NCBI GenBank assembly: GCA_964019415.1
Contig: OZ025868.1
Location: forward strand, 6,737,659 to 6,801,658
DNA from: Ianthella basta
Taxonomy: Eukaryota > Porifera > Demospongiae > Verongiida > Ianthellidae
Direction of reading: 5' to 3'
Length of the DNA stretch: 64,000 nucleotides
The translations under genes were made by a program, and so were the position numbers. The notes under the pieces are model-generated. The model saw nothing but the letters and a program-made list of their open reading frames with translations, did not search any database and had not been told where the DNA came from. Numbering within the stretch: position 1 is the stretch's first letter; each line of letters opens with the position of its first letter. Positions 3,006 to 58,590 of this stretch are shown here, piece by piece.

Positions 3006-6000
3006 ATGGACACGAAGGTAGACAGTCACAGTGTCGCTGTCATCGCGGTATTCATTCTTTATTTTTTGGCGTGCTTCTGTATAACAGCAAGTCTAGGTAA
3101 GTGGAGGGGAGGGGGGAACGCTTGTCATTACTTAATAAATAACATACAAAACATGCTTCGGACACGGGGTAAAATTGTCAAGTGTAGGAACATGTGAAGG
3201 TAGCTATAACCTCGCAAGGCATATGATTCTTCTTGCCCCTCTGACAGGCACACTGCTTGGGGACGGGTGTGGTACTACAATGGAACCTGTCTAATGTTGG
3301 TCACTGTGCTAGGCATCCACCTCCCTAAAACAGCCAGCCTCCTTTGCCCCTAATAGCACTAAAGCATGGAAATCTACCTCTGTAGAGCAGCTACCTCTAT
3401 ATAAAGGTCAATTAGAACTGGCTCAGAGGTTACTGGCTTAGACAGGTTCCACTTTACATTTAATGGTTAGGTAGTCTGTGGATATGGCTATCCGTTTGAT
3501 TACCAGTCACTGTCTTTGAGACTCCAAGGTTCACCTGTTTGTTATACTGCCTTTTCTGTCGTGTTTGCTACAGCAACCATTACCTTGACACGGGAGGATG
3601 ATGGATCCCCATGCTCCTCTTCCATAGTGCTGACGTGTTCATATCAAAATACGCAATTTGTGCGTATCGAAGAGTGCGCCGCAAACACCATGCACTTCAC
3701 TTTGGTGACGAGGACTACTATATTGAGTAACCCTGACTTTGAAGAAGTGATAAGTGCTGAATTGTACATGCTAAGGATTAGTCGAGTTGAAAGGTACAAT
3801 GGTACACGTTACCGCTGCCAAGGCTTTAATGCTGAAACAGAGGAGGAAGTGGTCAGTAACGAGTGGACACTGATAGTGCCAAGTGAGTTTGTAACAGCTG
3901 TGCAGAATTCATGCTGTAAACTTGTTTTGCAATTGTAGAATTTTGCCTACTTCTTGCACAAGCGCAAGCCATAAAGTAGTCTTTCTTAGCCAGAGTGCCA
4001 TTTTTAGGATCTGCAGTACCTACCAGGTAAGGCCTGTATTGGTATCTTTCCTGCATGTTCTGATCTACCAAGAGCACACACGAGTGTGCTATGGGTGATG
4101 CTGTGACCGTGGCTAGCTCAGGAATACCATTTCCTAAAGTGTAATATTATTATTATTGTAACAGTCAGGCTGCTCTGCCCACAAGGGGAAGGTTCATCAA
4201 CTCCCACTACATTCTCAGAAAGTGGGTGGGCTCAACACCTGCAGTTATGCTAATTATTGGTGTGAGGTATTTCTATTGTCACCAGAGCCAGTGAGGGTGA
4301 TGGACAGGCAAAGCAGTAGTGTCTGATGCTATTCATGAAGCGTAAACTGTTGTATTTTGTGTCAGGCATCATTCTGGCCGAAATGTCTTTGTAGTTTCAC
4401 CTACTTGCTTTGGGAAAGGTCTGTGCTTTGTGTCTCTTCCTTGTTCAGATTGTGCCTCTTCTGTGACCATGTTACTTTGTTTCAATTGAGGCACCCCACT
4501 GCAGGATGGTCTGAAGTATACATAGCTATGTAGCTATGAACGGAGCTGTACAACACTTAAGGTTGATTTAAAACTTGTTTGAATGACCAAGCGGGCACAT
4601 TCCTTAGCTTTGATGTTTGGCCACAGAAAGGGCCATATATCTGTATTGTCCAGGCTATCTGGTCATCGTAAAAGTAGTACCTACGTACTTCGCTACAGAC
4701 ATGCACTGTAACCGTGAATCTCTTCAGCAATCAAATAACCACCGTGTTACAAACGTAGAGACTGACTATTACAGAGAAGGTATGCTGTATGAACACGTGT
4801 CTGTAACAATCATGAATGCACACAAAAGAACAAGGACCTCATGGCCCAAGGGTCCTAGTGGAATGTATCATGCAAGAGAGCACGTTTAGCTAAACACAAG
4901 AAGCATGAACTCCACATATCACTGTTTTCTTCCTGTGCATTGTTGTTATATTTAGTAGTTGAGCGAAAGGCGTGAATTGTACTGAAATGGCTGTATTATT
5001 ATACGTATGTAATTATACGTAATAATGCGTAATTATACGAGACACCAATACTGGTGTAGTTGGTAGGTTAGGCGTAATACCCAGTGATTACTCTTTTCAA
5101 TTTAATTATACGTAGTTTGATCTCCATTTTCCCTTACAGCTTTCTAACTTTGTATGTGTACGTTGGAGGTTATTGTTTGTACTGTATGTTAATTTCATGA
5201 TCATGAAATAAATTGGTTAGTCGTCCAAAAGTGACATTATTTGCATACCATAATTATTATACTATCCTACATGTACATATATTTCTTGACAATGTTTAAT
5301 TTGGACAGCTTAGTAGCCTACAGTTTCCTTCAACTGTGATTAGCTACAGTAATGTCAATGCATGGTGAATGTATCAGTGCAGCACTATCTCTAACGTATG
5401 TAGGTGTGGTACATCTGATTGTTATAGTTATCTCAAACCTTTCTCATTGTACTTGTACAGACATATGCCCTAACATGGATACAAATGGCACAGACGTAGT
5501 GGACACCAGTGTTACAAGTACTATAAGCAATGCAACACTGGACAATGGCAACAACACTACAACAATAGGTAGCACATGTAAACACTGAATAAGCTGCCGC
5601 TCTGCATTTGGTAATCGTGCATCCTGTTTCTTATATATGCATGGTGTGTAGCAGTTGAAAGTAACATTGTGTATGCTCACAGATACGTACGTGTCTATGG
5701 TACATTTGCCTAGAATCAGCATGGTACCTGTGATAGCCAGGATCTTAGATAGTAGCAGTGAAAGTCATGCACTTCACTTTAGACCTGTGATTATTTTGAG
5801 ATGTTGCAATATGTATGTGCTAACCCATTTGCGTTTCTGTTTCTCCCTTTATGGTGACTCTAACTGTTTGCGACACATTCTCTGAATTGGACCAGCACAA
5901 CCATGGACTTCAGCACAGCTCAGCCTAGAAATACCTGTATCCATTGCAGCTGTTGTTGTTGTTGCTGCTGTTACTGCTCTTGTTACAATATCATGTATAA

Positions 6001-9000
6001 TAACAGTGGTTCTGCAAAGAAGGAAGAGACAAGGTATGTATGTATAGTGGATTGCGATTTACTAAGCCCATACTCATATTTTGATGTATACATGACATTG
6101 TACTGTATGTTATGCACAAACCACGGATCTGGACCTATGCAAATCATGCTTCAATACTGCATGTGCAACAAGTTGTTGATATTCAGATTGCAGAACATGT
6201 ATTGTGAGACAATCTGTGGATTGTTAGCTAGTGCATTCCTCGGATTGTTCCCTATGAATTGTGCTGTGCGCAGAGCAAGTGATAGGATGGCCTATGTATG
6301 TGAATCATTTCAGAGCGGGGGGGGGGAGAGGGTGGGGGATGCGAGGGATGGCCTGATATGGTGCTTACCCCCTAATTGAAGGTGAATGTTTTGCATTACC
6401 TGACAAGGAGGGGAAAGCGCTACCCCTCCTGTAAGTTCTTGACCTGATGTGAGCTCACCCAGAAATGGAAGGTGTTTGTTTGCATTACCTACTTGACCTT
6501 AACTTCTCCTAAGTAGTATGTATGTCTGCAATAGGTGACCTGTCCCATTATCTCAGGTATCTGATTAGCGATTAGATTAGCATGACAACCATGATTCGAT
6601 GAATTGTTTCAGTTGGTGTGACTCCTGACAAAATCATGCCCATCCGCCAGCAGTTGTTGATTGCACTGTAGGCAGTAATGGCCATGGGGGTGAGCACTTG
6701 GTTCATTCTTAGCATAGAAATGTATGTAACCTATTGTTGTTTACGATGTAATGTAATTGCTGAGCGGCGAGCGTAAGCAAGCGAAGCGAGGCCAATGCTC
6801 ACAGTCTATTCGAACTTCGGCGATGTTTATATATCCGATATTTGTATCGCACGACATGTGACTGCGCATGTGACTCCGTCACATGACGGCTTGTCTTTTC
6901 AAGGGGTGCTTCTGCTTCTGTTCGGCCGCTCATCTTTGCTGGCATGCTCCCGCGGATCAAGGGCACAGAAGGAGAGCAGATGGGAATGGCAATGACGCGG
7001 CTGCGTCCAGCACGCCGAGGGGGCCACGCTGCAAGATGGTGCGTGCGACTTGATACGGAGACAGCGGGGCAAAGAGAGGCCAGACTAGAAGTGAATGCGG
7101 CAGAATGGCACAAGGCTACTGGCCTCGGCGACGGACGAGCAGCGTCAGTCCAGGCTTGAGGAGCTTTGGCAGTAACAAACAAGGCACTTGGCTACTAAGA
7201 CAGCTCCAGTCTGTAACATCACATTACACTTGTGTATTGGCCATGTACTATTCATGCTGCGAGGCAATTCTTATGCGCTTAGCGTATGCCTAGTATACCA
7301 GTGATACATAATTATTACTCAGATGGTACCATTAATATTTTGGTTGCAACCTCGAGACCACATTATGTACCTACTGTAAGTCCAACGTCAAATTTGTGGT
7401 AGAGTTCATGTTTGCGAAACAGAGTTGAACTATGATGTTACCTTTTGATGCTTTATATGCAGGTTCATCAAGTGACCAGTCTGTGAACAGTCCGCCACAA
7501 CAGGAAACGAGCCCAGGGCACACGGCTGAATCATTAGTGGCAGGTATACATACAGAAGGTTTGAGTGATGAACCTTGGCAGTCTCCCCAAGCGGCAGGTG
7601 ATGATACAGCAGGAGTTTTGCCTAGTGCAGGGAACATCATGCACTATAAAAATGTCAGACATCACTATATGCACAGCTACTTGCGAAGTGATGAGCAGCT
7701 CACTGCTGTAAGTGAACTGGGATTATTGTACAGGCACTGTGTACGTCATGAAATGTTACATGCCTCCATGGGTACATACGTGCATATATGTATTCATTTA
7801 AAAGTGCTGTATGCATGTATGCATGCATGAGACTGCTGCAATGCTTGGTGTATGCCATGTTCATTTGTTTCTCCGACTCCATCTCAATCCATCACTTCCT
7901 CAGGCACCGCACATTGAGTCATGTACTGCCCGCCACAGCAGAGGTGATCATGACAGTAAGTATGCATAGTGTTGCAAATTTTAGATTTTTGATTGTCATA
8001 AGATATACAATGCAAATTATTAGAAGGAATAGAAATGGGCTTTTCCTCTAGGGAAATGGTTGGTTGTGTACATATACTCATGAGTGGCATGCTCTTAAAA
8101 TTAAGAAATTAGTGTTCCTTCTGCACGAGCAAGTGCATGTCACACATCCTAGTGTGTACGTAGCATCTATCTATCCTTCTTTGCTCTCCTGTCCACTTGT
8201 GTAACAGATGCTGTGGCCGGCAGCACTGTGCCAATGTCATGCAACCCAGCATATGTTGCTCTTGAGCATTCCTACCAACACCAGCTGCAGTCAGAATCAA
8301 CAGACAAGCCATTTGACCAAACTTCCCAGGGCCCATCTTGTAAGTACGTCAATAGTTTTTGGGCATTCCATTTACTAGCTGAATACTCACAGTTTGAGTG
8401 GGTTCCTAGCCTGTAGTTGGCAGTTTTAGTGTTTAATTTATCAAACTGGCCTGTTTTTCGAAATCCTGAGTTTTTAAAGGTGAGAATTGAAAGGTTCACG
8501 AATTTTTGGAAGATTTACAGCATTCCTTATCTTTAATTTTTGACCACTGAGAGTGTCAGAAAATAACAAACATTGTTTGCCAATTGCATTATGTATGCTG
8601 CCACTCACACTTAGTAAATATGCGAACAATGAGAAGCTACCTACTGTATTTGCATTATACTGTACATATTCAATTTAATTCACCCTTGGACTTCCTGTTG
8701 TGAAGTGACATCTCCCTTTTCCCCATTTACGTACCTTGCAGCTAAGGATATTTCTATGCAGGTCAACCCTGCTTATGAAACCACTACGTTGCAGATGCAT
8801 CCACTACCCTTCTCTACTGGGGCAGAGTTGTGTAAGTAACTGCCAGTACTAGCCAGTACCCACCAGTGCCAGAAGAGTATTTGGGCTTGTTGGCCACAGC
8901 AACCAACCACACCGCAAGTTACAATGACTGTTACAAGACTGTTTGCACCATTTGAGCCTTGAAAATAATCACCAGCGCAAATTGCAGAGGGTCAGGACCA

Positions 9001-9744
9001 GCACGGGCACCATTGGAGAGCATCATGCAGCAAGCAAATGTAACTTACAGTATACTCATTTCCTTGCCGCATGATGCTCAGATGGTGCAAACAGTCTGCG
9101 TATGTGGGCCTTTAATCCTTCACCTCTGTAACTTGCAGTGTGGTTGGTTGCTGCGGCCAATAAGCCCAAATACTCTACTGGCACTTATGGTGGGTACCAT
9201 CAGCAACATGTGCTGGTGGTGGTGGCCTTCCAGCAATGTTTCAAACTACTGTACATGCACTGGTGGTGGTTACCCTGTGTAACTTGCTCTGGTGTTTTTC
9301 CCGATATGTTCTGCCACATATACTGGCTACAGCGATTGTAACTTGGACTGTGTGGTGGTGTGTGGTGGTGGTGGCGGTGCTGCATGGTGGTGGCGGTGAT
9401 GGTGGTTGCACTTGTGGGTGTTGTCCTTGCAGCACTGGCACATATACTGTGTGGTGGTCGTGGTGGTGGTTAATATAAGTAAACAAGGTCAATAGGCAAT
9501 AGGTACGGCTAGTGCAAGACCTGCTACTAGCTATATAATAATATACACACGGTCAACCACCCTTAACCTCATTTCACTTTGCACAGTGGAAGATGTTCCA
9601 ATGCAAGGCAATCCTGCCTATGAAACACTTAATTCAACTGAACCAAGTGCACAGTTGCAAATACCAGCAAGAGTGCCTCGACTGCAGCCACTGCCTGCAA
9701 CAGAGCATGACAAAACTACAGATGACAGTGATCATTATATATAG
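3006..9744 (+). CDS. Gene A: single-Ig transmembrane receptor with three NPAY tail modules
   Basis: Nine exons join without a frame break: 3006-3096, 3574-3882, 5461-5568, 5914-6033, 7463-7707, 7904-7955, 8208-8339, 8742-8831, 9587-9744 (434 residues). Residues 1-30 are a signal peptide. Residues 31-134 form one Ig domain on a symmetric phase 1-1 exon (LTCSY, then YNGTRYRCQGF). Residues 134-170 are an S/T/N-rich stalk. Residues about 175-201 are a Val/Ala-rich membrane helix followed by QRRKRQ. The tail carries NPAYVAL (Y324), NPAYETT (Y364) and NPAYETL (Y394), each near a Met. NPxY motifs are known PTB-domain ligands and Y-x-x-L resembles ITIMs, so a phosphotyrosine-signalling or endocytic receptor is likely. 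Its ligand is unknown. Further ectodomain exons could be hidden in the 3883-5460 intron. It is a paralogue of D and F by tail. Confidence 0.8.
8840..9480. repeat. GTG-rich minisatellite in gene A intron 8
   Basis: This block is related to 1310-1810, mostly in inverted orientation: GTG/GGT runs with GTAACTTG-type cores near 9038, 9125, 9280 and 9338, plus a shared CAGCAAGCAAATGTAACTT segment. It fills most of the intron between the last two NPAY exons of gene A. The open frames on either strand are repeat artefacts. Confidence 0.65.
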
Positions 9745-11780
9745 CCATGGGATGCAGATGTCCATGTTGTGATTGTAATTCCCTCTTTGTCCACCTTTCA
9801 TCTGTTTAACGTACTTATATCTTCTACACAACATATTTTGTGATTAATTATCTTTATTGCATGGTTCATGTCTGTGATTTTAGTGCTGCTATTGGAAGTA
9901 CTCTCTACATAATAATTATCATTACATTTGTAGCTACGTATATTTTGTGTTTATTCAACTGTGACATGCCCGTCATCAATTCCATCTTACATTACTAAAG
10001 TGGAGGAAGTGCACAGGCCATGCAGTGCACCCCTGCTTACATGTCTTCAGTGCATGGTGATAATGCAACAGCACAGTACAAGGGCTGTGTTGTTCTACCG
10101 ATTTGCCATAAACTAATCATGTTGCTGTGGTGGGGGATTTCGTTATATATATATTGCAATTGATTATACAGCCAATTGCAAGGACTGATGTCATTACTGC
10201 ATTACATGTGTTCGGGAAGATGCACAGTTAGTCATATTTATATACATAGAATTTAAGGCATGTGGTGAGCACGTGATTGACTGCATGCATGCATGCAATA
10301 ATGACTTTAAGCAGATTGAAGACGACATTCATCTCTATTGCGTACCTGCATACAGCTGGCATATGCATAGGGGTGTGGGCACATTCACACTGAAGTGCAA
10401 TTGCACTGTTCAACATCAGACAATGAACTCATGCATGCAGAAGGAGGCTTGTATATAGTCATGCCATATCACGCCAAATTTACATCATATGAGCATGAAA
10501 ATGGAAGAGATAAAATTAAATATGGTGGTCGGACATGAAGAAAATCAGAAAGAATTAATGAATTGATGTTATGAATGATGATGAGAATTAATGCTTTTCA
10601 GGAGTCTATCTATAACCTTAATTGGGCGTTAGGTGGCATTGTGTTCCATATTTTCATGCACAAACCTATAAACTCAGACAGCACAGCAGTGCTGGATTCA
10701 TGGGTTGTGACATAATCATATAGAATGTTTGAAGAAAATGCAAAAAAATTAATGCCTTCGAACGAATGTTCGAAAGTAATCACATTTGTTTATGCGCACA
10801 ATACAGAATAACCAAACCTTATCCAAGAGTCCTTAAACATTGGCTGTACAGGGGTGATCGTTTCCTCATGCAGACAGCTATATTTGAATATAAGTATATG
10901 TAAATAGCAAAAATTCTCACATGCACACAAGCAAACCTGTACCGAGAAAAATTTAGTCACAACAATTTGACTCCCGCAAGTGAATGCAAAATTTATAAAA
11001 CATGTTATTGAACACTTACAACTTCAGGAGCAGGTGATAAGAGTTGCATCTCGCTTGGTACTGTACACAGAAAAGCATGCAAATATACTCTAACATTGCC
11101 TTAAACGTTGCAGTCTACCTTTGTAATGCAATTGCATCGCCAACACTAGCAAGCCAACAGGTAGCTATCTTGATATGTTCCATTGCATTAACATTGAATT
11201 TCTGCTAAACATATAAATGCACAGAGAAATTTACTAGGTCTTTGCTTGGCCAGTCTCTTCACATCTTCTTCAGAAAGACATGCCTATGAAACCAGAAGAA
11301 TGATATACTGTACAGCATGTAAAAGTAGATAGACTTTGGGGTGAAGTATCACTTACATGTTCAGAATGACCATGAAACCATGACAGAACATTTCAATAGT
11401 TCAAGCTTCCATGAGCAAAGTAAAAGATACAAAGCATACATACATCGACCTCACCAGCAATTTGGGCTGGTCCTTGTACATTGCCACACTTTCTATAAAC
11501 CAGATATGCAATCTACATGTACAATTCAGAAGAATTGTACATAAAGAGGCCACACTCGCTCAGCATAATAACACAATTATTCAAAGGTTTGCCATAACAG
11601 AGAAGTATGGTGGCCCTTTGGTCATCAAGTTCAAACATAGTTACAAGTAAGACCAAATTTCATAATTATGGTAAAGGAAATTACTTAATGTGTGTCAACC
11701 TGAGGGTCTACATGGTAGACTATTATTGTTTAAAAGACACCTTTAACATTGCATTGCTAGAGTTACTGTCTAGCGAAAAG
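9745..11780. other. Spacer downstream of gene A
   Basis: No gene is recognised apart from the decayed NPAY exon at 10001-10110. The sequence is AT-rich with scattered short frames lacking splice context. Confidence 0.4.
10001..10110 (+). pseudogene. Decayed copy of a terminal NPAY exon
   Basis: About 250 bases past the gene A stop, TGGAGGAAGTGCACAGG followed by an ATG-CAG...CCT-GCT-TAC stretch aligns with the start of the last gene A exon (TGGAAGATG...CCTGCCTAT). The Asn of N-P-A-Y has become Thr, small insertions shift the frame, and the acceptor reads AAAG. This looks like a remnant of a duplicated tail exon, so the number of tail modules has probably changed over time. Confidence 0.5.
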
Positions 11781-13100: not shown

Positions 13101-13122
13101 ACGTGTTAGCTACGTAGCTACC

Positions 13123-13711: not shown

Positions 13712-13894
13712 TATAAAGCTGTAGTACTAGTGTTGCATGCTCTTTGAGTTCATTTTCATGTTGAATCAACTAATGCCTGATTACATGTCATTGCATGCAG
13801 GCTTTTAGCTATAGCTGCAATGTATCTATAACTTCGAATTCAATGTGCATGTTTTGTAATTTAATGTGGTAATCATTTATTCACAGCTACAACA

Positions 13895-14010
13895 TTTACA
13901 GCCTTTCCTACATGTGTAGTCACAAAGAGGCTCTCAACGGCCACTGACTTCCTTCCAGTGACATTGTACCTGACGTCCATGTTCACCAGCACATTCCTGT
14001 TACCTCCAAT
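13895..14010 (-). pseudogene. Remnant of a gene E-type terminal tail exon
   Basis: On the minus strand this aligns with the last exon of gene E (48169-48422): the stretches encoding RNVLVNMDV and VTGRKS.AVESL are recognisable, but the YDYIQ end is disrupted by indels and the Pro-rich/NPVY half is missing. No partner exons are seen nearby. A second E-like gene therefore probably once lay in this region. Confidence 0.65.
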
Positions 14011-16132
14011 TGCAAACTATGCTTGTGTATGCACTTATGTATGTGTTGTACATATGCCACTGTTAGGCTGATCTCATATGCACTCTACGAAGTGTTCAGT
14101 GCAGGACAGTGTTCAGCAACACAGTGACCTTCCAAGGAACAGGTGTGCAGAGAACATAATTATGCACACTTGATTTATTACACGCATTATTTCTCTTACA
14201 GCCAATTCCTTGCCTAGCCAATTAACCATAATTATTATAAGGTACTTAGCAAGCTAGTCCCCCAATGTTTGCATTGCGTTCCTCCCCATAGCTACGTAAT
14301 ACATACAGCTACTGAAGGTAGTGCTGCTCTGCTATTATGTGCTAAAGATTTGTGGATTTTGTATCTGTCATTGCGAGTTTAGGATTCAGGGTGAAAAATA
14401 TTATCATGGTTTAATTTATTCATTATTCTTGCACCTCATGTCACTGACACAATGACTGTGTTCAAGTTCTTTATGTTTACGTCTATGTATTGTTGTTGAA
14501 GTAACTAGCTATAAATTGTTTGTCAATATAGGTGAATCACTGGGAACTCTTTACAGAAGTCACTAGCCAACTGCAAGATTTTGATTTAGCCAATTGCAAA
14601 TGCTCTGGCATGCAGCTAATCAGAACTGCTGCCCTTTTCAGGTTTGCATGTGTTTACAACTGTGCATATTGTACTCACACACACCAAAACATGTACGTTG
14701 TTTGTGGCATTAAACTTAGTCTTCTCTGGGAACTTTGAAAGCAAAATACTATGGTATGCATAGTATGCTTTGAACTTTAGTTGCCAGTAACATCTTTAAA
14801 AGGCCAGGAAGCCAGACTTTCTCCACTGCCTGTTACTCAAATGTCTGTGCACCTTCATAATAGGGAAGTCCTACATTGTTACACCATGCAAGCACATTGC
14901 TGATTAATCGCTGTAACACTATATATCGCTAACAACATGCAACATTGAAGCAGTTAGCTAGTGTCATGGAGAGGCCGGCCGTGAAGCCAGACTCACTTCA
15001 CTGCTTGTTACTCAAATGTCTGTGCACTTGTATGTCTGTACGTGTGTACATGTGTTGTCTGCACAGAGAGTGATGTGGTATTTGGACGTTTTTACCTTTA
15101 TCTCTTCATAAGATGTTATGGGCTTGTGGGTCATCTGGGAGTGTGCAGGAGAGTTTGAAGTTGTGACCTTGCAGGATACTTGTCTGGGTCTGAGTATGTA
15201 GACTTCACATTGATTAATATTATTGGTATCTGTCCTGATGGTGTAGCTAGCTCCCCATGCTGGTCTGGAGTAGTTATTGTATGTATACTAACTATAGTAA
15301 CTAACGAATGAATGAGGCAAAGTGCTATACACTATGAGGCATTTGATCATTGCATTTTCATAGGGAAGCTGAAATTAAAATGGAAAATTCAACAATATTA
15401 TGTAGCTACATTGTGAAATTACTCACTGAAGTTGTTACTACTCATGTGTTGAAACCAATTATAGAACAATAATCTGAATGACTGAATACTGCTGCAGCTG
15501 TACTTGGACACGTACTTGATTCGGCCAAGTATCACACTAGCTACATCCACGATCCACCTTTGACTTCAACCATAGTCTGTAGCTACCATGTCTTGAGAAC
15601 CAGACTGCAAGTTGTACATGCAACAGTCTGACTTGCAAAGTTAGTGGTAGCTAGCTACACTTGTGCAGACTGCAAATTGAAAGAGTATATACTGTACAAA
15701 TTATGCTCAATAATAATGCATGTCCAGACTAGCTACATAGTTAGCTACGTAGCTAGCTATATAGCTAACCAACAAATAGCTATAGAATGCGTAGCAGCTT
15801 GAGCTCGGCGTTGACCAGTATCTTCGCAAGATAAGCTGATGAGGTGAAGTGATGTAGTTTACTCTTTAGAAAGGTTGAATATGGAAGACCCCATTGCTCA
15901 TTCATTAGCCATGGGATTAAGATGCAGCTAGTTAGCTAAGGTGGACCATGCATGACTCAGATTGAGAGGTGTAGCTAGGTAGCTAGCCACTAATAATTTT
16001 ACACAGCACTATAGCATCATTGTAAGGGGCTATCACAGGGCATTGCTAGTAAGAGGTCCCTTAAATTAATCACGAGCTTTGATATGCTAATGATACTCAA
16101 GGTGATGAAGGGAGTCCCCGTGTCTGAAAAAC

Positions 16133-16450
16133 ATGGCTGCTCGACCTCTTTCAGCTAAGGCACTCAGTTATACTGTTTCTTGGGAATCTGAACCTCCCTG
16201 AACCTCAGTGAGTGTTGATAACTAACTCTTGTTACTGTTTTAGTTTGGAGGCGATTGAAGGAGGGTAAAGGTACTTTATCAGCAAACAAAACGGACCGCA
16301 AACAGTACTCAACACTCCAGAGCTCGCTGTTCCTGAACCTTCCTGAACCTTCCTGAATGTCGACCTCGGTGAGTGGTATTGACTGACCCTTCTTTGCTCT
16401 GTGCTGGTTTGTAGTGGAACCAATGAGGGTAAAGATGTTTTATTAGGGAA
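16133..16450 (+). repeat. ATGGCCGCTCGACC repeat, copy 2
   Basis: The start ATGGCTGCTCGACC is followed by two half-units, each with a CCTGAACC segment, a GTGAGT-like site and a GAGGGTAAAG end. It is nearly identical to the copy at 62094-62410 because both lie in the segmental duplication. Within the ATG frame a stop follows after 22 codons, unlike the longer frame at 47514. Confidence 0.6.
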
Positions 16451-16484
16451 CATTTGCAAATTACTAGTAACAGAACTGGTAGTA

Positions 16485-16510
16485 GTCAGGCATCACATGA
16501 TGCCTGACTA
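16485..16510. repeat. Perfect short palindrome AGTCAGGCATCA
   Basis: AGTCAGGCATCACATGATGCCTGACT reads the same on both strands. A second small stem at 16972-17006 (GATATAACTACCC and its complement) lies in the same block. Both are preserved in the right duplicate near 62450 and 62940. Confidence 0.6.
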
Positions 16511-17130
16511 AACTGGTAGGGGAAGTATAAAAGGAAGGTAAATTACAGATAAACTGAAGGCAGTGTAGCTAAATTCTTCCCCAAGGCTATCTGCAGTGCA
16601 TGACTTACTGGCCTTAAGTGTTGCATTATTCTGGGCTGCATGCATATGGCCATGCAAGGCACAATGTATCTATTTACGTAGCTGCATGTTAGGTTATTTA
16701 TGCAGGTTTTTGTCGATCCACACTGATAATTGCTTTGAAATATTTAGTGCCGTACATGTTTGATCAATATCATGAGCATGCATGTACCTGTACGTAGTGC
16801 ACGCTTGCTACTTGTATAATTTTTAAGATGTGAACACATACGTATGTTGGTCCAGCAGCAAGCTCCACAGATAAGTATATGTAGTATTCATGCATATCGT
16901 GTATCATCAAAATCATATTACCTCTGATCTGGTCAAGATCCATGCATGGCCACCACAAAATTTTAAGCAAAGATATAACTACCCCTGGATCAGGGTAGTT
17001 ATATCATAATTAAATGTAGCTACAGAAATCTTTGTGCACATGGAAGCTTAATTGCCACTTGAATGCTAGCTACAAGGTCCCAACCCACTTTAAGTCATCC
17101 ACTTTAAGTGTGTGCATATGTTAATGTGTG

Positions 17131-17153
17131 TGTGTGGGGGGGGGGGGGGGGGG
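17131..17153. repeat. (TG)n followed by poly-G
   Basis: A short TG run passes into a long uninterrupted G run. The right duplicate (63090-63119) has different TG and G counts, as expected for a mutable tract. Confidence 0.8.
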
Positions 17154-17588
17154 TGTATGGATATCTCAGAGTATAGAGTACAGCTAGCTGCAGACAGTAT
17201 GCAATAGTGAATGTACATGAAAGTCTGAATACTTCCAGTGTCTGATTAGTCTATTGAGCAAGAAATCTTTTACATTACAGGTAATTATAAATGGATGAAG
17301 AGAAAGGGAGAGGCCAATGTGAATTTCTCAGAGAAAACTCTTCTCCACTCCTTCAGAATTAGCTGCTTCAAGTGTGTTTAGTTGAATGTGGAGGCTAAAT
17401 ACTTCGTTAACTTGTGGGTGTCACTGAGGTGCTACTAGGCGCTAGTATATAACTGAAATGAACTTGGTCAGTAGCTAATGAATAAAGAAATGTCTGCTAG
17501 GCCCTTTCTTTCGCATCCCCTGTTATAATTTCCAGTTACATGAAAAGTTAAAGAGAGCTTGAAAATGAAAACTACTGTATGATATGTT

Positions 17589-33108: not shown

Positions 33109-33117
33109 ATTACTGGT

Positions 33118-46900: not shown

Positions 46901-47098
46901 AATGATGAGGATATTCAACTGCAGCACAATCCAGCATATGAACCAGTACAATTGTTCCCGGTCATGCTCTGCAGTGATCAACACAACAGGGTTGTTGCAC
47001 ACTACTCACCACAAGTGGCTGAAATGCAGCCCAACCCAGCTTATGTTCCTCTGCCTTTAACAGCTGCAATGGATAATTTGGAAGACAATTCACACTAA
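40959..47098 (+). CDS. Gene D: single-pass receptor with novel Cys ectodomain and two NPAY tail modules
   Basis: Seven exons agree in phase: 40959-41064, 41165-41419, 41518-41567, 41666-41756, 41859-41984, 46469-46507, 46776-47098 (329 residues). Exon 1 gives a hydrophobic signal-like segment (NLILAVALSQLIQFA). Exon 2 (phase 1-1, residues 36-121) is a compact domain with LCCNYS, VFIDGT, CRIVYV and VGRWNAT; the same domain occurs in gene C, and I cannot place it in a named family, though an Ig-like fold is possible. The membrane helix (residues about 171-202) ends VVKRRCLK. The tail has EEQYAVS (Y253), NPAYEPV (Y277) and NPAYVPL (Y312). Spacing, phases and tail motifs make it a paralogue of A and F. 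The long intron before exon 6 holds transposons. The start codon choice is reasonable but not proven. Confidence 0.75.
42640..43390 (+). mobile_element. Non-autonomous Helitron-like element, second copy
   Basis: Terminal GGGGCGAGCCTGAGCGAGCCCCACAC blocks occur at 42643 and 43359. Bases 43140-43330 carry, on the plus strand, the same LLEQPVV.HK, D-T-Y-L-x-x-L and C-ITCCEAFPG region as 36149-36300, broken by small indels. It lies in the long gene D intron. Confidence 0.6.
43891..44858. mobile_element. TTAA-flanked element, copy 2 (inverted)
   Basis: Begins TTAAGGTAGTAGGTACAGCT and ends GCCGTACCTACTACCTTAA. It is the reverse-orientation relative of 30081-31024. The minus-strand open frame of 139 codons is not matched in copy 1 and has no motif, so I treat it as non-coding. 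Confidence 0.75.
45600..46095 (+). other. GC-rich stretch with possible isolated exon
   Basis: This part of the gene D intron is richer in G, C and CpG than its surroundings. An open frame ends in ALIFG at a GTAAAT donor-like site near 46098. Other frames across 45618-45960 are also open on both strands. It may be a first exon, a promoter-like island, or a decayed transposon gene. No motif decides. Confidence 0.25.
46105..46225. mobile_element. Hairpin MITE with about 38-base arms
   Basis: TTACTACATGCCTTCGATGG...TTTACTGCAC pairs with GTGCAGTAAA...CCATCGAAGGCGTGTAGTAA across a GC-rich loop (TCGCCCTCGGGCGCTTCGC). It lies in the gene D intron. Confidence 0.75.
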
Positions 47099-48168: not shown

Positions 48169-51100
48169 TCACAGCCTTCGCTGTATGTAGTCGTAGAGGC
48201 TCTCAACGGCCATTGACTTCCTTCCAGTGACATCATGATACATGACGTCCATGTTCACCAGCACATTCCTGTTCTCCCCAAAGTCGCTGTGCTCCACATA
48301 AGCTGGAGGAGCAGCAGCACCTCCATACACAGGGTTGTGGGTCATCTCAATGGGAGGTGCAGGAGGGGGAGGGGGAGGGGGATGGGTGGGGAAATGGTGA
48401 GCCTTGGACCTGTTCTTCTTTGCTGTTTGGAGAGGATGGAAGGCAGAGCAATAGTGCAGAAATCTCATGCAGTTAGCTAGTAACTATGTATATATTAGAT
48501 TGTTAAGTCTATTTCCCATTATTGGTGTATGGCATCGACACGTACTGCTGTGAATCAGGAACAATGTGATTGAGATGCATGCTGTGGTAACAGTATGAAC
48601 TTGAGTGTTTGTGAGCTATCACAGAGCAACTAGATAATTATGTAAAACATTTCAAACAAGAAAGCCTTTGTCAGTTACAACACTACTGTATAATTAATCA
48701 GGGAATGGCTGCTCTGACGGCACAGTGGCTCATGCAAGGTCTACTTCAACTGCAACTCAAATTGCAACTGGTTGCATCCTGGTCCACCCATTGACCTAGT
48801 ATCCCACCATGGATGGTACTATCCATGACCCACCTGCAGTTCTTGTTTTATCCCACCAGTTTCGAATTTCTTCTAGCTATAGATCTCACCCACATCTCTC
48901 CTTTGACCACACCCCTTTCTTCTTGACCCCATCCACAGCTCACCTTTGACCCCAAAATGAATGACAACCCCAATAAGTTTGATGGTCAGTAGGTACACCG
49001 CCACTCTTGTGATACTCCCAATCACAACATTGATGAAGCTAGGAGCATCAGGAGAATGATTCCACATGTCTGCACTGTCACCTGAGGGCCAGCTATAATG
49101 TGTAGCTGTGTGCATTGCAGACCTTGTCTGAAATGTTTAGTATACTTTTGCAACTAGTGCGGCTGACTGCTTTAGAGACAACAGCCTATTTATTTAGTAT
49201 AGGTACAACGGTCACTATAAAAGCAGGATTTACTGTATGACACTCACTCAGCGTTCAATCTGTTCTGTAATGTCAGAGTTTATATGTGTTGCTGAATGGC
49301 TCATCTTAAACTACAAATGTACCAAACAATGTCATGTCAAAGCCACAATTGTTTGTCACTCTGCCAACTACCAGGACTGTGCTGTGTCTTTGTTAGGTAT
49401 ACCTGTGTGTGGATCAGCCGATGGAGTTGTCATCTTGTCGCTAACTGGATTAGCAGCCTCTGTTGTTGGTGAGGGTTGTGTTATCTGTGTGGCACTTGCT
49501 CTGAAAGAGGTTGCCTGCATTGTAAAGAGGATAGGTGCACAATGACTACTGTAGACAGTATAATTTGAATCAATTGTTAATTATCATGCTTCAGTGAATA
49601 CATATTGCCAATGTTGTTTCTGATTATCTGTGTTCTTATATAGACGCTTTCAAACTCCATCAAGCTGCATGTGTACTTCATTCTTTATACAGCTGAATCT
49701 AACATCTGGAACATAACATTGGTTGAGGGTATTTTCTAATCAAGAACAGCTTGGAGTAGAATATCAGAACAAAGAATTTGTACATTTCTCATGAATGATC
49801 TGGCAGAAAATGAAAGTATCTATAGCCCAGGCCCTTATTGCTGTAGCCAGGGCCCTCAGAGCTGCTCAGTATGTGTAGTGGACTTTGAGTGGTACTCTGA
49901 AACTTATCCTATGCCCCTCCCACGAATGAAAGTGTTTGCTACTGTAAAGTTGTAAATCTACACAAAGTATTGACGTACTTTAATGCTTCGCTCTTTGTAT
50001 AGCATCTCTGTACTTGTACTGTAATAATCACACCAATAACATCAGTGACGACAGAAAACGACACTAGCTACCTTGCTTGAATGTAGTTCTGAGTTGGTGC
50101 TGGTTGGTGTAACGTACTGTGCCAGTACCAGTTGTCATTGCAACACTTGTTGTCATGGCAACATTTATTGTTATGGCAACACCAATTACTTTGCAATAAG
50201 AGAAGGAGCTGTGGTTGCCATGTGACATGAGTTGTGGTGGGACTCATCATATATAGCAGCACTGTAAACTGGTTGGATACTGCTGTCAAGTGTAAGGACC
50301 GTCTTGCTTGAATTTAGTTCTGAGTTGGCGCTGCTTGGTGTGAATGTTACAGTGCCAGTTGTCGTGGCAACAGATGTTGTCATGGCAACAGTTGTTGGCA
50401 TGGCAACATTTGTTGCTATGGCAACTCTGGATGTCAAACCAATTACTTTGCTGACATAAGAGAAGGAGCTGTGGTTGCCATGATGACATGAATTGTGGTG
50501 GGACTCATTGTAGCAGCACTGTAAACTGTTTGAGTACTGCTGTCAAGTGTAGGGACTGCCTTGCATGCTTGTGTGGGAGACACTGAACATTTGTGTTGTT
50601 GCCATGACAATGGATGTAGTAGCATGTGTATTACTCACCAGTGTAGCAGCTGTGGTAGAGCTGGTCTGAGATGGATCTGTTTGAATGAATGGCATGAAGT
50701 AGAGCATGTTAATACGTATAACTACGTATGTGATTTAGTGTATGTATGAATGTATGTGTGTGTGTGTGTGTGTACAACATGTTGAGGGGAATTCCTATAA
50801 CATAACAACACTCCAAGCTCAATGAACTGTTGCAATAGCTTACGTAATTTATGCATTTTTTTGATTTTAAAGTATACATTATTATGTTGAATCTGATTTG
50901 AGGGCAATCACGTACCATCATGTATATACATAGATGAACATCTATAACAAGTTCCTTCAACGATGAGGGTCTTTGTCAGTTCATATCTTGTTTTCGTACA
51001 CAGCTAGCAAAGTCCCTCGTTGTTGGAAATTCCTCCAATCACAGTTCATCTACACTGTGTGATTTACTTTCATATCAGCTTCAAATTGTCTCTATACAAT

Positions 51101-51637
51101 GTAGCAAAGGATCTGTATGGCATTTCCGTGGTACGCAGATGTTGCACACATACACCAGAATGAGTGTATGTGTTAGCTGGCATGCAACAAAGGTTATATT
51201 TTTAATTAATTGATCTACAACTAACTGTTGTCTTAGTCATCACCAGCTCCATCTGTAGTAGTCCCTCCAGTAGCAGGGTCTAACAATGGGAGTGACAAAG
51301 GCACAGCTGTAATTCTTTTTAGATTGTGCAAGTAAATTGATTCAATGATGTGTGTCTCTTTCTATCTTGTTGTCCCCTTACCTGTATGCACAGTGCTACA
51401 TGCATTGTTTTGGTAGCTGCTACGGAATGTGTTCATGCTGTCTGAAATGTGTTGCCCACCTCTGACAATCTACTGTATGTCCATAGTTGCTCAGTTCTGT
51501 CTCCAAATTCTGTGATTCGAAGCCATCCCCATTGATGGTAAAGTAGGGGTAGCTCAGTGCTGGTCCCCCAGTGTAGCTGCACTGGATCATGACTTTATCA
51601 CCAATATTCACCTCATTGCCTCCGATATTGCTAATAT
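48169..51637 (-). CDS. Gene E: Ig receptor with charged membrane helix and Pro-rich NPVY tail
   Basis: Recognised exons in coding order: Ig exon 51637-51382, stalk exon 50676-50639, Thr-rich sequence at 50570-50070 (exon limits unclear), membrane exon 49081-48944, tail exon 48422-48169 with stop. The Ig exon has GDKVMIQCSY and, in a shifted frame, YQNNACSTVH; at 256 bases it is one base off a phase 1-1 exon, so a frameshift or sequencing error is present. The membrane exon encodes FINVVIGSITRVAVYLLTIK and continues, with Arg and Lys inside the hydrophobic stretch. The tail has seven prolines, MTHNPVY, PAYVEHSDF, VMYHDV and SLYDYI. SH3/WW and SH2/PTB partners are plausible. No signal exon was found. 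It converges on gene D and overlaps gene F. Whether it is functional is uncertain. Confidence 0.55.
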
Positions 51638-53063
51638 CTGCAGTAGCAGGGCCAACAGCATCTCATCCACAGCAGAAATGAGCGTAAATACTACTTGTCA
51701 AGATAAAGACTGATAATACATGTCAGATTAAGCTGGGCATTCTTAGCTTTGAAAATGATAGTCTGTCTGCATAATACGTGTGAGAATTCCTCTTAAAGAA
51801 ATGGAAATGTCTTACTTCCCAGCCATATGTTTACCAGCTAGTATATATCTGCATATGTGCATGCATTTCTTTCTTCTTCAATTGTGTTGCAAGTGCTGTT
51901 GGCAGTAATGTTCCCATGTCTTACAACCCAGCTTATGTGCCTCTTGAGTCTGATCATGAAGGACCAGCAGCAGACAAGTCACTTCAAGAAGGAACCTCTC
52001 CTGAAACATTGTGTAAGTGGCTCTGTGTTACTGTAATAATACCTACAGTGCATGTATGTGCATAGTCATACAGGCCAATTCCATGGATGAAAGGTACACC
52101 TGAAATTGTCTGTTACATGCATGTAACATGCATGTAACAGGTGCATCATTTTGAGTAGGGTGTAGCAGGCGAAGATTTTCAGGCAAATCAAAGAGAAGAG
52201 AGCAGCTAGTGTTTACCAGGTCATAAATTCTGCAGTGCATTTAAAATATAATAGCTTTGCTAGGCCTTGTCTTACAATAATATCCCATTGATAGCATATG
52301 TACATTCACTTGGCTCACCTGTTAACGTTCCATTCAGCGGAAGAACTTGCAATGCAAAGCAACCCTGCCTATGAAACGCTTGGAGGCATTAGCACACATT
52401 CACCAGTGCAGGCATGTCCACTACAATTATCTGGGGTGGCTGAGCCATGTGGTAAGTATGCACACTTATAGTTCAAAACAGAGCCTTTATAATCTTACAC
52501 ACACCTGTGCATGTATAATTCATATTCACCTTCTCCCAATATCCATGCTTCATCTTGTTATTGCATGCTAGTATCATCTTGTCTAATCATTACGTGGTGT
52601 TTTCCTTGTTCAAACAGACCTGATTGTCTATGAAGTTCTGATATACTTAGTAGATTCGTACTATCACTATCAAACAAATACTATCACAGTTCATAACAGT
52701 TCCAGGCATTTTGACAGCTTCATCAGTGAGTCTAATGAAGGTATATTTGAAAACTGTAGAAAGGTGTGGAATTGTTCTGAACCCAACTATTGTGAACAAA
52801 TAAGCTCTGCAGCTTCATGCTGTTTCTGGGTTAAAGGCTTAGCTACATGCTCTTGCTGTAATACAGTGGTATACACACATCATGACCACCTTCCCATTCT
52901 TCTTGCAGAAGATGAGGTACTCATGCAAGTCAACCCTGCTTATGAAGCTATTAGGGATTTTACCAGACATGTAAAATATACATGGAATAGCACAGGTTGT
53001 TGTACATTTGTAGGAAATTTAATCATGCATGAAGACGTAGATGAACTAGCTCATATTATGTAG
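49397..53063 (+). CDS. Gene F: partial NPAY-tail receptor, probably decaying
   Basis: Tail exons: about 51894-52012 (PMSYNPAYVPLE, matching gene A exon 7), 52338-52451 (MQSNPAYETLG) and 52909-53063 (MQVNPAYEAI, then a stop after a long divergent end). Exons two and three keep phase 1 and good splice sites. The first has lost one base at the acceptor (GCAAG where A has ACAGA), which would break the frame. A possible membrane exon at 49397-49534 (phase 1-1, GIPV...VKRIG) lies far upstream, inside gene E on the other strand. No ectodomain or signal exon is seen. It is either a pseudogene or a source of alternative tail exons. The long last exon lacks the conserved ending of gene A. Confidence 0.4.
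50072..50565. repeat. Tandem duplication rich in GTTGYCATGGCAAC palindromes
   Basis: Units 50072-50303 and 50304-50565 are diverged direct repeats. Within them GTTG-N-CATGGCAAC-type 14-mers lie at 50131-50144, 50149-50162, 50167-50180, 50358-50371, 50376-50389, 50394-50407 and 50412-50425, and partial ones near 50214, 50473 and 50598. They resemble the RFX X-box palindrome GTTGCCATGGCAAC. On the minus strand the same repeats read as VAMTT-type Thr-rich coding sequence, which could be the stalk of gene E. Confidence 0.6.
50753..50774. repeat. (TG)n microsatellite
   Basis: A short TG run within the gene E/F overlap. It has no coding meaning. Confidence 0.8.
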
Positions 53064-54440
53064 CTACGTATTTTTGGGTTCCATCACTAAACTGCATCGA
53101 TCTTTTACCATAAGACTACGTAGCTAAGTACGTACAATTTTATTGCAGGCTATAGAATACGATCATGTATTGGTATAGATTGTAATAGATGTATACATTA
53201 TTAGCCCTAACTGTATAGGGCTAGCTTGGATAAGACTGCATGAGTATAAAATCAAACCTTGCATGTATTCTCATGGAGAAACTGAATTTGAAGTAGAAAG
53301 TCAATCAATGTAGCTGCATTGTAATATTACTCACAATAATACTATTGCATTGAAACAGATAGCTATAGCAATAATCTGCACTGTAAATACTGGTAGCTAC
53401 ACATACAACACTATACACATGCAGCTATTGGTGTATATTATGTGTTGCACTGTCAAATCAAAACTCAATTATTAGGTTGAATGGGAAGTAACAATTCTTG
53501 ATCCTATTATATACACACACAGACTTTGTATGTACACTAGCTAGTCTTACTATATAGCTAGTCTAATGAGCCAGATTATTGTACAACCGCCTGACTTTAT
53601 GAGACTATAGCTAGCTAGCTACTGTTTCACTTTTGTAGACTGCAAACTGAAAGAGTATAGCTACCACATGCATTATGCTCGTAGCTAGATCATACCATAT
53701 CATTATACACATGCAATTTGTCATCATGTCATCAATCATGTCCACCAAACAAAATCGTTACTTCAATAGCTTGTGCATGATGTTGACATGTAGCTAGCTA
53801 GCTAGCTTTATCACCATGCAGAGGAGATGATGAGATAAAGTGATGAAGCTAGTCTCACTATATAGTCTCGTGAGCCAGATTATTGTACAACTGCCTGACT
53901 TCTTGAAGGAGTATAGCTACCACTTGCATTATGCTCATAGCTAGATACGTACCATGCATATCATTATGCACAATTTGTCATCATGTCAACAATCATATCC
54001 ACTAAATAAAATAGTTACTTCAATAGCTTGAGCATGACGTTGGCATGTAGCTAGCTAGCTAGCTTTATCACCAGAGGAGACGGTGAGATGAATTGATGCA
54101 GTTTACTACTGGTAACACTTGAACCAGGAACTCACTACGGAAGATCCTATTACACTTGCATGGGACCAAGATGCTGCTATGGCTCGCTATTTTTTAGCTA
54201 GCTACATATCTACAGAAAGGTGACTCTGCATAATTGAAGAGGTGTAACTAGCTGGCTAGCTAGCCGTAAGAAGACACTAATTTTCCACGCAGCATTATAT
54301 GGCCATAGTAGCACTGCAAGTACACAGTTGGCACAGCACACTGCTAGTAAGAGGTACCCTTAATTAATATGCATCGGCGCCCAGAGAGCAGCTGATCGCC
54401 AATGCTTACGTGCAGGGGAAGCCCCGATGTTAGATGTAGT
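53064..54440. other. CTAG-rich spacer after gene F
   Basis: No gene is recognised. A block at about 53530-53830 is repeated at about 53840-54110 (shared TAGTCT...GAGCCAGATTATTGTACAAC segment and a TAGCTAGCTAGCTAGCTTTATCACCA end), an imperfect tandem duplication of roughly 300 bases. Confidence 0.5.
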
Positions 54441-54448
54441 GGGAAAAA

Positions 54449-55197: not shown

Positions 55198-55269
55198 TAC
55201 AGCAACATTATGAAATTTTCTGCGTGGCTTTGTTCTTGCATTATTAACACTGAGAGAAACTCAACTACA

Positions 55270-55452: not shown

Positions 55453-56453
55453 TAGCCTAATTGTTGGACAGATGTCCTTGCTATGCTAAACGTGCTTGGG
55501 GAACATCAGTCAGTGGTAACAGGGTGTGATGAGCACTGGAGTGCAGCAGAAGTTGTCAACCATCATGCACTCCTAGTACATTCACTCAGAGATATTGATT
55601 GAGGTGTAACACATTTGCACTGACTGTTGGACAATACACTGAAGAAGATCGAGGGTTGTATTATCAAGGCCCCTGACTTACACACTGCCGCACTCTCTAA
55701 TTTCCTTGTACGTGTGTACATGTACTGTAGCTATTTAGATTAGCTAATATAATACGCATTTGGAAGGATATTATACAAGCCTAGCCTGCATGCAGGGTGA
55801 ACATGACAAAGCACATCAATGTGTGTGCTCGTTGTTCCTCTAATTATGTATGATATTTCTGCTGGCCATTCCTAATGACTTCAAATAATTATTAAAGGAG
55901 AAAATTTATTTATAACAGTTTTAAATTTCTATGGTAACAGCTGCAGGTCAGTATGTGGAGTGTGGTTTGCAATTGCAATTGGCCCCAGGCAGCTTCATTT
56001 CAGACTAGAGGTATATAACTTAGTGTTACATTATTCATGTAGCTGACTAGTATACACAGCTTCCTTCATCCCATCAACTTATAACTGATGTCATTGCACA
56101 TTGTATAAATGGGAGTATCAGTCCACACTATACGAGACTAGGTGTATAAAACTGCAACTATTAAAACAATGACATTTCCTTTGTTGGTTATACGTTAACT
56201 ACAGTTTAAATGATCTAAAGTCTCGGTCCACTGCACGCCAATTTGGTAACTTTGAGACCACCATCTGACAGGGGCTTGAGTCCTGTACAGAAATGATGGC
56301 ATTGTAGTCATGGTATGGTAACATAAATACCAAACTCAGATTACAAGCACTTCATTTTCCAGCAAATCATCACAAGTACCCATGTACGCATGTTCAACAG
56401 CAGATATGAAAATAGACCTATTTAAGAAGGCACAATGGGAATCTTAATCTGCA
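55453..56453. other. Spacer between hypothetical ORF and gene C
   Basis: AT-rich sequence in which I see no exon, hairpin or repeat of note. Confidence 0.35.
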
Positions 56454-58590
56454 TCAACTCACATCATCATCTGATTGAATGGGCAATTTGTTTGGATAAT
56501 AATCATGAATCTTTGGTTCAATGTTCCATTTAAGATTGCTGCTGGTCTCTGATACACATGGACCTGTTTGATCATCTGATAAATGAATTCGCTTCATAAC
56601 TGAACCAATTGAATGCAAGACAAAGAACAGTCAGTTATGTAAGTTGCAGAATGATAGTGCAGTATACAGTGCACAAGTGCTCTACTGTGTTGTGTTACAG
56701 TAAAAAGCAGCTCACCGGCTGTGCCCCCCGGTCCACCAGCTGGGTCACTATCACCAGAATCAGAATCGTCATCTATGCAAAATTAGACAATAGTGTGAGT
56801 CATTAGCTATAATCACACAAGCAGAACAACAACGCGAGGACAAGATAAACACTTGCAGAGATGCAAGAAAAGAGTACCAGTCCCTTTTCACGAACCCATT
56901 TGCAATACACGCCCTTCACTCCAGGCTAACCTTTGTGTCCACGCTTTCTGTCTGTTCTGTCTAGGTTGGATCATTTCAAAAGGCCATCAGTACCATTCGA
57001 AAATGGCATACTTTTATGACCAGGGTTGAAGGGTAACTGGCTGGGGCCTTCAGAGTGGCTGTCTAACTCATTTGCCCATGCAGCCTTGCACTCTGCACGA
57101 TGAGTAAGATCATTATACTTCATAACACATGTAGAAGAACTGATGGAATTTACATTGCCCAACAAGAGATTCAGGGGCTTACTCACTCAGGTCTTCTTCT
57201 GGAGCAGCAGCATTCATTGCAGAGGACAGCTCCTCTTTCAGACTAACAGAGGCGTCCTCGGGTTGAACAGGGAATGGAAGTCCACAGCCTAAGCAGAATA
57301 AGTAAAATTAAGTTGAATGAACAGAGGCATGTACATACGTACAGCTACAATAACACTAAACGTCCTGTCCTATAGTTAACTCATCAGGTTCCAATTAACA
57401 AAGGGTCCAGAGCTAGCCAGATTGCTATATCATCATAAAACACATAATGATCACTGCTTTGGCTTACGTACTATTGCACTAATTAAGTATGAGAACAACA
57501 ACTGCGAGAATGAAAAAACAGTGAACCCACAGCCATCAAATTCATTTGCTGCAATGGAGGGATAGGGATCAAGTATTCACATAATCAAAATATAAGCTCC
57601 GCTAGGAGATGTACCTAATGTACATAAAACAATCCTACAACCATTTGTCTCTATGTCTCTGCCTTCTGTAGAAAGCATCCCAAAGCAGTTTGTTCCCATT
57701 TGCGAATACATGCAGCTATGCCTTGCTAAAACAGTATCTACCTTCTGTGGAAAGTGTTCCACAAAGTTTCGTGGGCCTATGTAGTTCTGCAGTTTGTATA
57801 CACATGCTCCTGGCATGTTTTATGGACATTCAACAAGTACCGCTATATACGGCCAACTGTTGAGTTCAGCACACAAATTCACGTCACATGTGACATGCTG
57901 TACATAAAGTTGAACTCATTACACAAAACCTATAATCCATGCATTCTTAACTATTACACACCTGACGTGGGTCCATTGCTCATGAGTGCTTGTTGAGATG
58001 CCTGGGTCACTCGTAGCAGTACCTGACGGCAGAAAACATTGAAAATACGTTTGCAGTATAAGTAATTTTGATCATAACAGAATAAACAAAAACCCATTTC
58101 CGACTGTTATAAGCACATACCTGTGGGCTTCGAATTGTGTCATTTTGTGAGGCTAAAGTGAAGACTGATACAAATTTAGACCACTGACATACATGTAATA
58201 TAATACATTTGATCTGCAACTCACAAATGACAATTGTTGTAGCATTCCACCTCCCTTCAGCGTCATTACTTGCATAAATTATGAACTGAAATCTCCACTC
58301 CATTATTGTTGCTTTATTGGCATGTGGTATACAATGTTACAACCAGTGCCATTGGTAGTCTTCAAATTGCTTAGCAAAGTTCCATTGATGAAGAGTCTGG
58401 GCAGGAATGCGGCCAACGAGGAGTAATTGCAGCAAAGGCTGTTGTTCCCAAGGTACACAAACTCAGATGGCGTTAAGTGAAAAAAGTGATGAATGAATGT
58501 TGACAAATTAGCTGATGGAGAAGTACAGGTGAAGCTGCTATGTGAGCAAGATTTAACAGTTTGAATATCGATTGTGCTACACAGTATAGT
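56454..58590 (-). CDS. Gene C: chimeric receptor, D-type ectodomain with B-type acidic tail
   Basis: Exons in coding order: 58590-58333, 58285-58225, 58152-58121, 58022-57962, 57548-57480 (weak), 57288-57187, 57092-56994, 56772-56716, 56575-56454 (stop TGA). The ectodomain has LCCNYSSLA, RLFINGT, GTGCNIVYH and EGRWNATT, aligning with gene D exon 2. The next two exons keep the D phases (1-0, 0-1). The tail then matches gene B: QLPFNPGHKS against LLPYKPGGKG, and DDDSDSGDSDPAGGPGG against DDSDSDSGDDDEPGG. The ectodomain changes frame between CNIVYH and FIIYAS; a 47-base intron (58286-58332) with GT-AG ends restores it, otherwise it is a frameshift. The membrane helix (GFTVFSFSQLLFSYLI) is short and uncertain, and no signal exon was found. 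Confidence 0.55.

Follow-up and report, generated by a model that had tools for sequence, protein, structure and literature searches.

What are the receptor-like exon chains crowded into one stretch of the genome of the sponge Ianthella basta, and what could receptors with such different outer domains have in common? The stretch, here called the window, comprises 64,000 nucleotides (C1:6737659-6801658) and was analyzed against the genome of 209 Mb in 96 contigs; positions given without a contig are those of the window. Exons were picked by eye, and their AG/GT borders and phases were then checked by script, which gave several chains whose exons agree in phase: A and E on the + strand, B, D and C on the - strand. 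We propose, with moderate confidence in the two parts jointly, that the window belongs to a complex spanning about 0.8 Mb (C1:6.355-7.164 Mb), made up of type I membrane receptors duplicated in tandem, whose tails would share a docking code for phosphotyrosine-binding (PTB) domains. The window itself appears to be a mixture of live and broken genes.

Gene A looks like an intact type I receptor, with a signal peptide, a diverged putative immunoglobulin (Ig) domain, a stalk, a membrane helix and a five-exon tail. Its nine exons run from ATG to stop in one frame on the + strand and would encode 440 amino acids. The first exon (3006-3096) carries MDTKVDSHSVAVIAVFILYFLACFCITASL, judged by eye to be a signal peptide, and ends in phase 1. 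It is followed by the diverged Ig-domain exon (3574-3882), a Thr/Asn-rich stalk exon (5461-5568) and the membrane exon (5896-6033), all of phase 1-1. The tail opens with an exon of phase 1-0 (7463-7707), to which an exon in locus L050 is related (E 2e-10), and one of phase 0-1 (7904-7955). It continues with two phase 1-1 exons carrying VPMSCNPAYVAL (8208-8339) and ISMQVNPAYETT (8742-8831), and ends with an exon that contains VPMQGNPAYETL and the stop codon (9587-9744).

The Ig exon of gene A recurs at 14 further places at C1:6.355-6.966 Mb, all on the + strand and one with an internal stop; beyond these places the top Ig match reached only E 4e-4 and contained two stops. Among 11 A-type sequences in three groups, the pairwise ratio of nonsynonymous to synonymous divergence (dN/dS) was 0.07-0.88, and this exon is therefore taken as real coding sequence. 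Profile comparison with hhalign aligned the A-type domain to the C-type Ig domain described below (95.3%, E 2.3e-8) but gave 34% (E 4e-4) against the canonical Ig domains of this genome. In the Pfam scan, Ig_2 matched one of 13 sequences below the cut-off (E 0.025) and SpaA_2 matched five of 13 weakly (best 0.016). The PDB profile search gave a best E of 0.12, with Ig proteins in five of eight rows and a bacterial metal repressor in three. Single-sequence structure prediction returned a mean predicted local distance difference test (pLDDT) score of 43, useless as a model.

The shared feature of the tails is an NPxY motif preceded by hydrophobic residues. Gene A carries VPMSCNPAY, ISMQVNPAY and VPMQGNPAY, gene E carries IQLQHNPAY and AEMQPNPAY, the C tail carries IEMTHNPVY, and a truncated tail on the + strand carries VPMSYNPAY, LAMQSNPAY and VLMQVNPAY. 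Counting back from the tyrosine, residue -6 is M or L at all nine sites and residue -8 is V, I or L at eight. PTB domains of the insulin receptor substrate (IRS) type read hydrophobic residues at -8 and -6, and the window sites have this ligand geometry. The three sites of gene A compare with a mean of 0.001 in shuffled tails, none of 2000 shuffles reaching three.

To follow the motif beyond the window, we searched the whole genome with back-translated patterns, each paired with a backward control. The searches returned 239 matches for [VI]xMxxNPAY, 206 for MQxNPSY, 45 for [VI]xLxxNPAY (though CTN has four codons against one for ATG) and 39 for MQxNPAY, and every backward control gave 0. The first three sets cannot overlap; MQxNPAY overlaps the first. 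Shifting M to -5 left 10 matches (backward control 0), seven of them at C6:2.48-2.52 Mb, and the one such locus examined, L036, also has M at -6. These counts are sites, not genes or independent events, and tandem arrays multiply sites. Positions were listed for 100 of the 239 [VI]xMxxNPAY matches, all on C1; three arrays hold 87 of the 100 listed, at 0.99-1.85 Mb (45), 6.357-6.997 Mb (32) and 13.8-14.0 Mb (10). For MQxNPSY, 96 of the 100 positions listed, out of 206, lie at C1:3.66-4.55 Mb. The MQxNPAY sites include 19 in the complex of the window, six at C6:0.95-1.05 Mb and seven at C11:4.67-4.80 Mb, while [VI]xLxxNPAY adds groups on C10, C12, C13 and C18. Six isolated matches were fetched, and in all six the motif has V or I at -8 and is surrounded by an open frame.

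The domains found before the motif on the same strand differ from locus to locus: NIDO and fn3 in L086, a VWD-like domain below the cut-off in L085, Ig and FN3-like domains read by eye in L093, and an Ig domain, again read by eye, with repeated MQANPSY/MQDNPSY in L003. A tyrosine docking motif in tails, at hundreds of sites and behind differing ectodomains where these were read, suggests one common signaling plug. The region C1:3.66-4.55 Mb is itself a very large MQxNPSY tail array, with units often 2-4 kb apart and Pfam Ig matches at its start; in the one unit read, frames resembling Ig and FN3 are accompanied by a hydrophobic stretch and the motif.

We also compared the tails with other receptor signaling motifs, the immunoreceptor tyrosine-based activation motif (ITAM, YxxL/I-x(6-12)-YxxL/I) and inhibition motif (ITIM, [SIVL]xYxx[IVL]). 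ITAM spacing is absent from the A and E tails and from all 12 C-type tails. ITIM-like sites are likewise absent from A and E; there are two in each of the 12 C-type tails, which are close relatives, and two or more arise in 13 of 2000 shuffled versions of the C tail in the window. The tails of A, E and C reach their stops with no kinase match, unlike those of receptor tyrosine kinases. IRS-type PTB domains are present in the genome as 14 exon matches. Phosphorylation-dependent docking is favored because of the NPxY geometry, the genomic IRS-type PTB domains, the lack of ITAM spacing and the lack of ITIM sites in A and E. In the excerpted text of PMC3507883, NPxY is the usual ligand of PTB domains; the structure of the one in IRS-1 was solved with an NPApY peptide, and specificity lies N-terminal to the tyrosine.

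In the mechanism we propose, a ligand would be bound by an Ig-type or other ectodomain, upon which (V/I)-x-(M/L)-x-x-N-P-A-Y sites would be phosphorylated on their tyrosine by a Src-type kinase. The phosphorylated site would then be bound by the IRS-type PTB domain of an adaptor, which would relay the signal. Several unrelated ectodomain classes would thus converge on the same docking code, as vertebrate Ig and lectin receptors do on ITIM/ITAM. If ectodomain exons duplicate, are exchanged and decay next to a conserved tail, recognition could evolve under constant signaling. This explanation as a whole, a tandem receptor complex with a shared PTB-docking tail code, is in our judgment fairly probable. 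More tentatively, and with less than even confidence, we suggest that one PTB-type code, (V/I)x(M/L)xxNP(A/S)Y, may be the signaling plug of the animal's whole recognition repertoire, with hundreds of tandem receptors bearing Ig, Ig+FN3, NIDO+FN3 and VWD ectodomains, and so an independent counterpart of ITAM/ITIM.

Several observations weigh against this explanation. The lone NPxY of the C tail is within chance (90 of 2000 shuffles), and just the longer form exceeds it (one of 2000); the second site of gene E lacks the -8 residue, and NPxY is absent from the B and D chains. Array copying inflates the motif counts, and most matches are unread. In L085, L086 and L093 the order of ectodomain, membrane segment and tail is given by same-strand position, not by splice joins, and PTB binding of the tails is argued from motif geometry only. 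A link of the ectodomain type of E and B to Ig is not measurable, with hhalign at 0.6% and 0.2% on three sequences and no Pfam Ig match. There is no solid sign of positive selection in A-type Ig exons, in C-type Ig exons or tails, or in gene E against its copy. Finally, Dab-like PTB domains mostly bind NPxY regardless of phosphorylation, as stated in the part of PMC3507883 consulted.

This last point, from the same source, supports the main rival, which we regard as unlikely: the tails would belong to endocytic or scavenger receptors whose unphosphorylated NPxY is read by Dab/ARH/Numb-like PTB adaptors for particle uptake, not signaling. The hydrophobic residues at -8 and -6 and A or S at -1 suit IRS-type ligands, however, and not those of the FxNPxY type. 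The two ITIM-like sites kept in 12 of 12 C-type tails also speak against it.

The C-type family, on the - strand, comprises 12 tails: that of the window, one copy of it and 10 in a tandem array at C1:7.05-7.15 Mb. The array holds 11 Ig exons at 7.053-7.147 Mb, nine open and two with the same frameshift, and a composite of several copies gives a signal peptide, an Ig domain, a Thr/Ser-rich stalk, a membrane helix and a tail. By profile and residue evidence, the C-type ectodomain is an Ig domain. Pfam ig matched all nine members scanned at E<=1 (best 1.2e-6), the tabled member L072 passing the cut-off, and C26 and C94, the paired B- and F-strand cysteines, are invariant in nine of nine. Comparison with the canonical Ig domains of the same genome gave 92.0% in hhalign, and a search against PDB profiles had a best E of 0.019, all 60 matches listed being named as Ig-domain proteins.

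With respect to selection, the C-type Ig comparison used seven sequences (21 pairs), leaving out the frameshifted L070 and L071, L073 and L076 (identical in DNA to sequences used), L080-L082, which are distant, and the copy in the window together with its duplicate. Here dN was 0.094 and dS 0.145 (pooled dN/dS 0.65), and one of 21 pairs exceeded 1 (L075/L078, dN 0.101 over dS 0.084). Over 10 array copies each, the tail gave dN 0.040 and dS 0.077 (dN/dS 0.52), and the membrane exon dN 0.031 and dS 0.106. An earlier note on this DNA had called the cluster fast-changing, which stands only in that ectodomains diverge more than tails.

Purifying selection on A-type Ig, together with recent block duplications and near-identical copies, would also fit adhesion or developmental receptors that expanded in tandem neutrally and have no recognition role. 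The many arrays among the matches listed, the ectodomains diverging on a similar tail and the broken copies argue against this explanation, which seems to us improbable, to about the same degree as endocytosis. Broken copies, clustered Ig superfamily (IgSF)-type genes and ectodomains more divergent than tails are, in turn, what a strict allorecognition complex would show, in which polymorphic self ligands govern fusion or rejection as with the Hydractinia Alr genes. Against it, dN/dS is below 1 in the compared Ig exons (C-type pooled, A-type in all pairs), and a broad receptor repertoire is the better match for hundreds of sites spread across many arrays; we rate strict allorecognition as slightly more doubtful still. 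The cluster may serve allorecognition or innate recognition, of self or of microbes.

Within the window, C is a dead remnant. Its tail exon (48169-48422, -) contains polyproline, IEMTHNPVY, PPAY, VMYHDV and SLYDYI, and its membrane exon (48944-49092) contains R and K. Upstream lie two Thr/Ser-rich stalk exons (49403-49514 and 50639-50676) with a repeat tract between them, and a further segment at 51460-51661. The Ig exon ends half way, where array copies continue to the YNGTTYQC strand, and nothing in the window matches the signal exon seen in the array copies, the best tblastn match (E 0.52) lying elsewhere. At about 51,636, where the upstream part of C belongs, homology to the truncated + strand tail starts. 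We considered the charged membrane segment as an adaptor site like that of the T-cell receptor and rejected this, since R and K are missing from 10 of 10 array copies; for the same reason we read them as decay of the window copy. A second copy of the remnant lies about 55.4 kb away. The C-type stalk is a tandem repeat whose DNA nearly matches the palindrome GTTGCCATGGCAAC, the RFX X-box (window 50080-50640, minus strand; L069 and L070); in L069 and L070 the repeat stays open as a Thr-rich stalk.

The truncated tail is an A-type copy at 51636-53300 (+) with exons at 51894-52012, 52338-52451, 52618-52725 and 52909-53063 and three NPAY sites. It is homologous across exons and introns to C1:6.7107-6.7124 Mb, the match setting in roughly where the first tail exon of the relative ends.

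Gene E (+) is an open, phase-consistent chain from ectodomain exon to stop, with a near copy with the same borders 59 kb on; no signal exon was found for it. The ectodomain exon (41165-41419, phase 1-1; LCCNYS...) has no Pfam Ig match. Its acceptor is taken as real because in the copy the upstream frame is broken by indels and the exon is still open. Stalk exons at 41518-41567 (phase 1-0) and 41666-41756 (phase 0-1) lead to the membrane exon (41859-41984, phase 1-1), and the tail exons at 46469-46507 and 46776-47098 carry IQLQHNPAYEPV and AEMQPNPAYVPL and end in a stop. Against the copy, the four exons with dS above 0 gave dN/dS of 0.29, 0.54, 0.48 and 1.32, the last value being that of the last tail exon with one synonymous change; two short exons have no synonymous change. 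Inserted repeats lie in the intron before the tail. Inverted copies of an element lie at 30080-31031 and 43884-44859 (89-93% complementary), the second inside this intron.

Relatives of E and B lie at C1:6.838-6.852 and 7.023-7.032 Mb, and the ectodomains of this type have four cysteines common to three aligned sequences. Gene B (-) consists of ectodomain and stalk exons (57962-58511), a weak hydrophobic exon that may be the membrane exon (57468-57548) and five tail exons (56199-57288). Its ectodomain is disrupted relative to L045: a stop interrupts it at a point left open in the relative at C1:7.032 Mb, and it is either frameshifted or needs a 47-nt intron, which would skip the stop but lose about a dozen residues. 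L083 and L084 match tail exon 1 at 91% and 94%, while the ectodomain has one clear match, of 43%, to L045, a few kb beyond L084 and taken as the same gene; its match to L083 is weak (30%, E 0.025) and contains a stop.

Gene D (-) has a membrane exon of phase 1-0 (26689-26795), a small exon before it (27066-27092) and a tail of five phase 0-0 exons (26285-26350, 24553-24651, 24101-24163, 22883-23011 and 22187-22252); no ectodomain was found. Six further exons (19752-19800, 19500-19637, 19247-19372, 18990-19166, 18807-18884 and 18603-18665) continue it in phase, one resembling tail exon 3 of gene B by eye. The minus chains at 27.1-18.6 kb fit a single gene, a model drawn from splice borders only. 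A tandem duplicate at 25277-25954, with 378-base spacing and 99% alike over the 300 bases reported, lies inside a tail intron of gene D. That all these chains are artefacts of reading frames by eye is very improbable: the exons are short and B, C and D fail in part, but relatives show the same exons, borders and phases, and Ig dN/dS is below 1.

These results bear unevenly on the earlier note. Its receptor cluster on both strands survives in the chains and their copies on C1, far larger than the window, with C dead and the B ectodomain broken; C as a working receptor gene falls, given the absent signal exon, the half-deleted Ig domain and the charged membrane segment. The tandem, pseudogene-rich look it described gains support from A-type and C-type copies across C1 and from dead copies. 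Among these, its exon copies at 2154 and 13895 correspond to a dead duplicate that covers the upstream part of gene A together with its Ig exon (1804-2344, +) and a dead fragment of a C-type tail (13876-14016, -), and that at about 10001 to a decayed NPAY tail-exon copy, MQCTPAY, read by eye (10000-10060, +). Symmetric 1-1 phases are common but not general, as the D tail has phase 0-0 and pairs of 1-0/0-1 occur in A, E and B. Phosphorylatable tails find support in A, E and C, with (V/I)x(M/L)xxNPxY sites, but not as NPxY for B and D.

Elsewhere in the window, transposon-like genes with a THAP domain (+) and a YqaJ exonuclease domain (-) lie at 32536-33606. Repeat copies at 15459-17933 and 61449-63895, about 46 kb apart, are 92-100% alike in the pieces listed, and the first ends close to where the 18 kb chain has its final candidate exon. 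In the wider genome, DEG/ENaC channel matches fall on the single contig C23 (three matches), two covering nearly the whole profile in one open frame.

The ectodomains of recognition receptors change too fast for tracing between animals. A tail code, provided that it is real, offers a handle independent of the ectodomain: the repertoire could be listed from DNA through the tail, and the adaptor found biochemically. How an early animal distinguishes self, partner and intruder would then become directly testable. Neither this tail code nor an Ig/NPxY cluster of the kind in a sponge appeared among the open-licence papers listed.

Among known systems, the vertebrate leukocyte receptor and natural killer complexes are separate clusters of differing folds with one tail code, duplication and pseudogenes. 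The receptors described here resemble them in all these respects; the difference is that there ITIM/ITAM are read by SH2 proteins, whereas the tails here have NPxY with PTB geometry, the C-type tails having both NPxY and ITIM-like sites. Docking of the interleukin-4 (IL-4) and insulin receptors involves few receptors with single sites; here there are hundreds of sites, those listed largely in arrays. That docking is to IRS-type PTB domains (PMC3507883); its sites are NPAY with N-terminal hydrophobic residues, like those reported here. Sponge SRCR receptors and aggregation factors (PMC5450542) are likewise large lineage-specific recognition families, but with different domains. Closest of all comes the allorecognition complex of Hydractinia, which, as excerpted in PMC11067881, has clustered single-pass Ig-type receptors, pseudogenes and low overall identity between members. 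Tandem IgSF genes with pseudogenes, as in Alr-type complexes, are found here as well. The sponge complex differs in its tail code, (V/I)x(M/L)xxNPxY, which in the loci read also stands behind non-Ig ectodomains.

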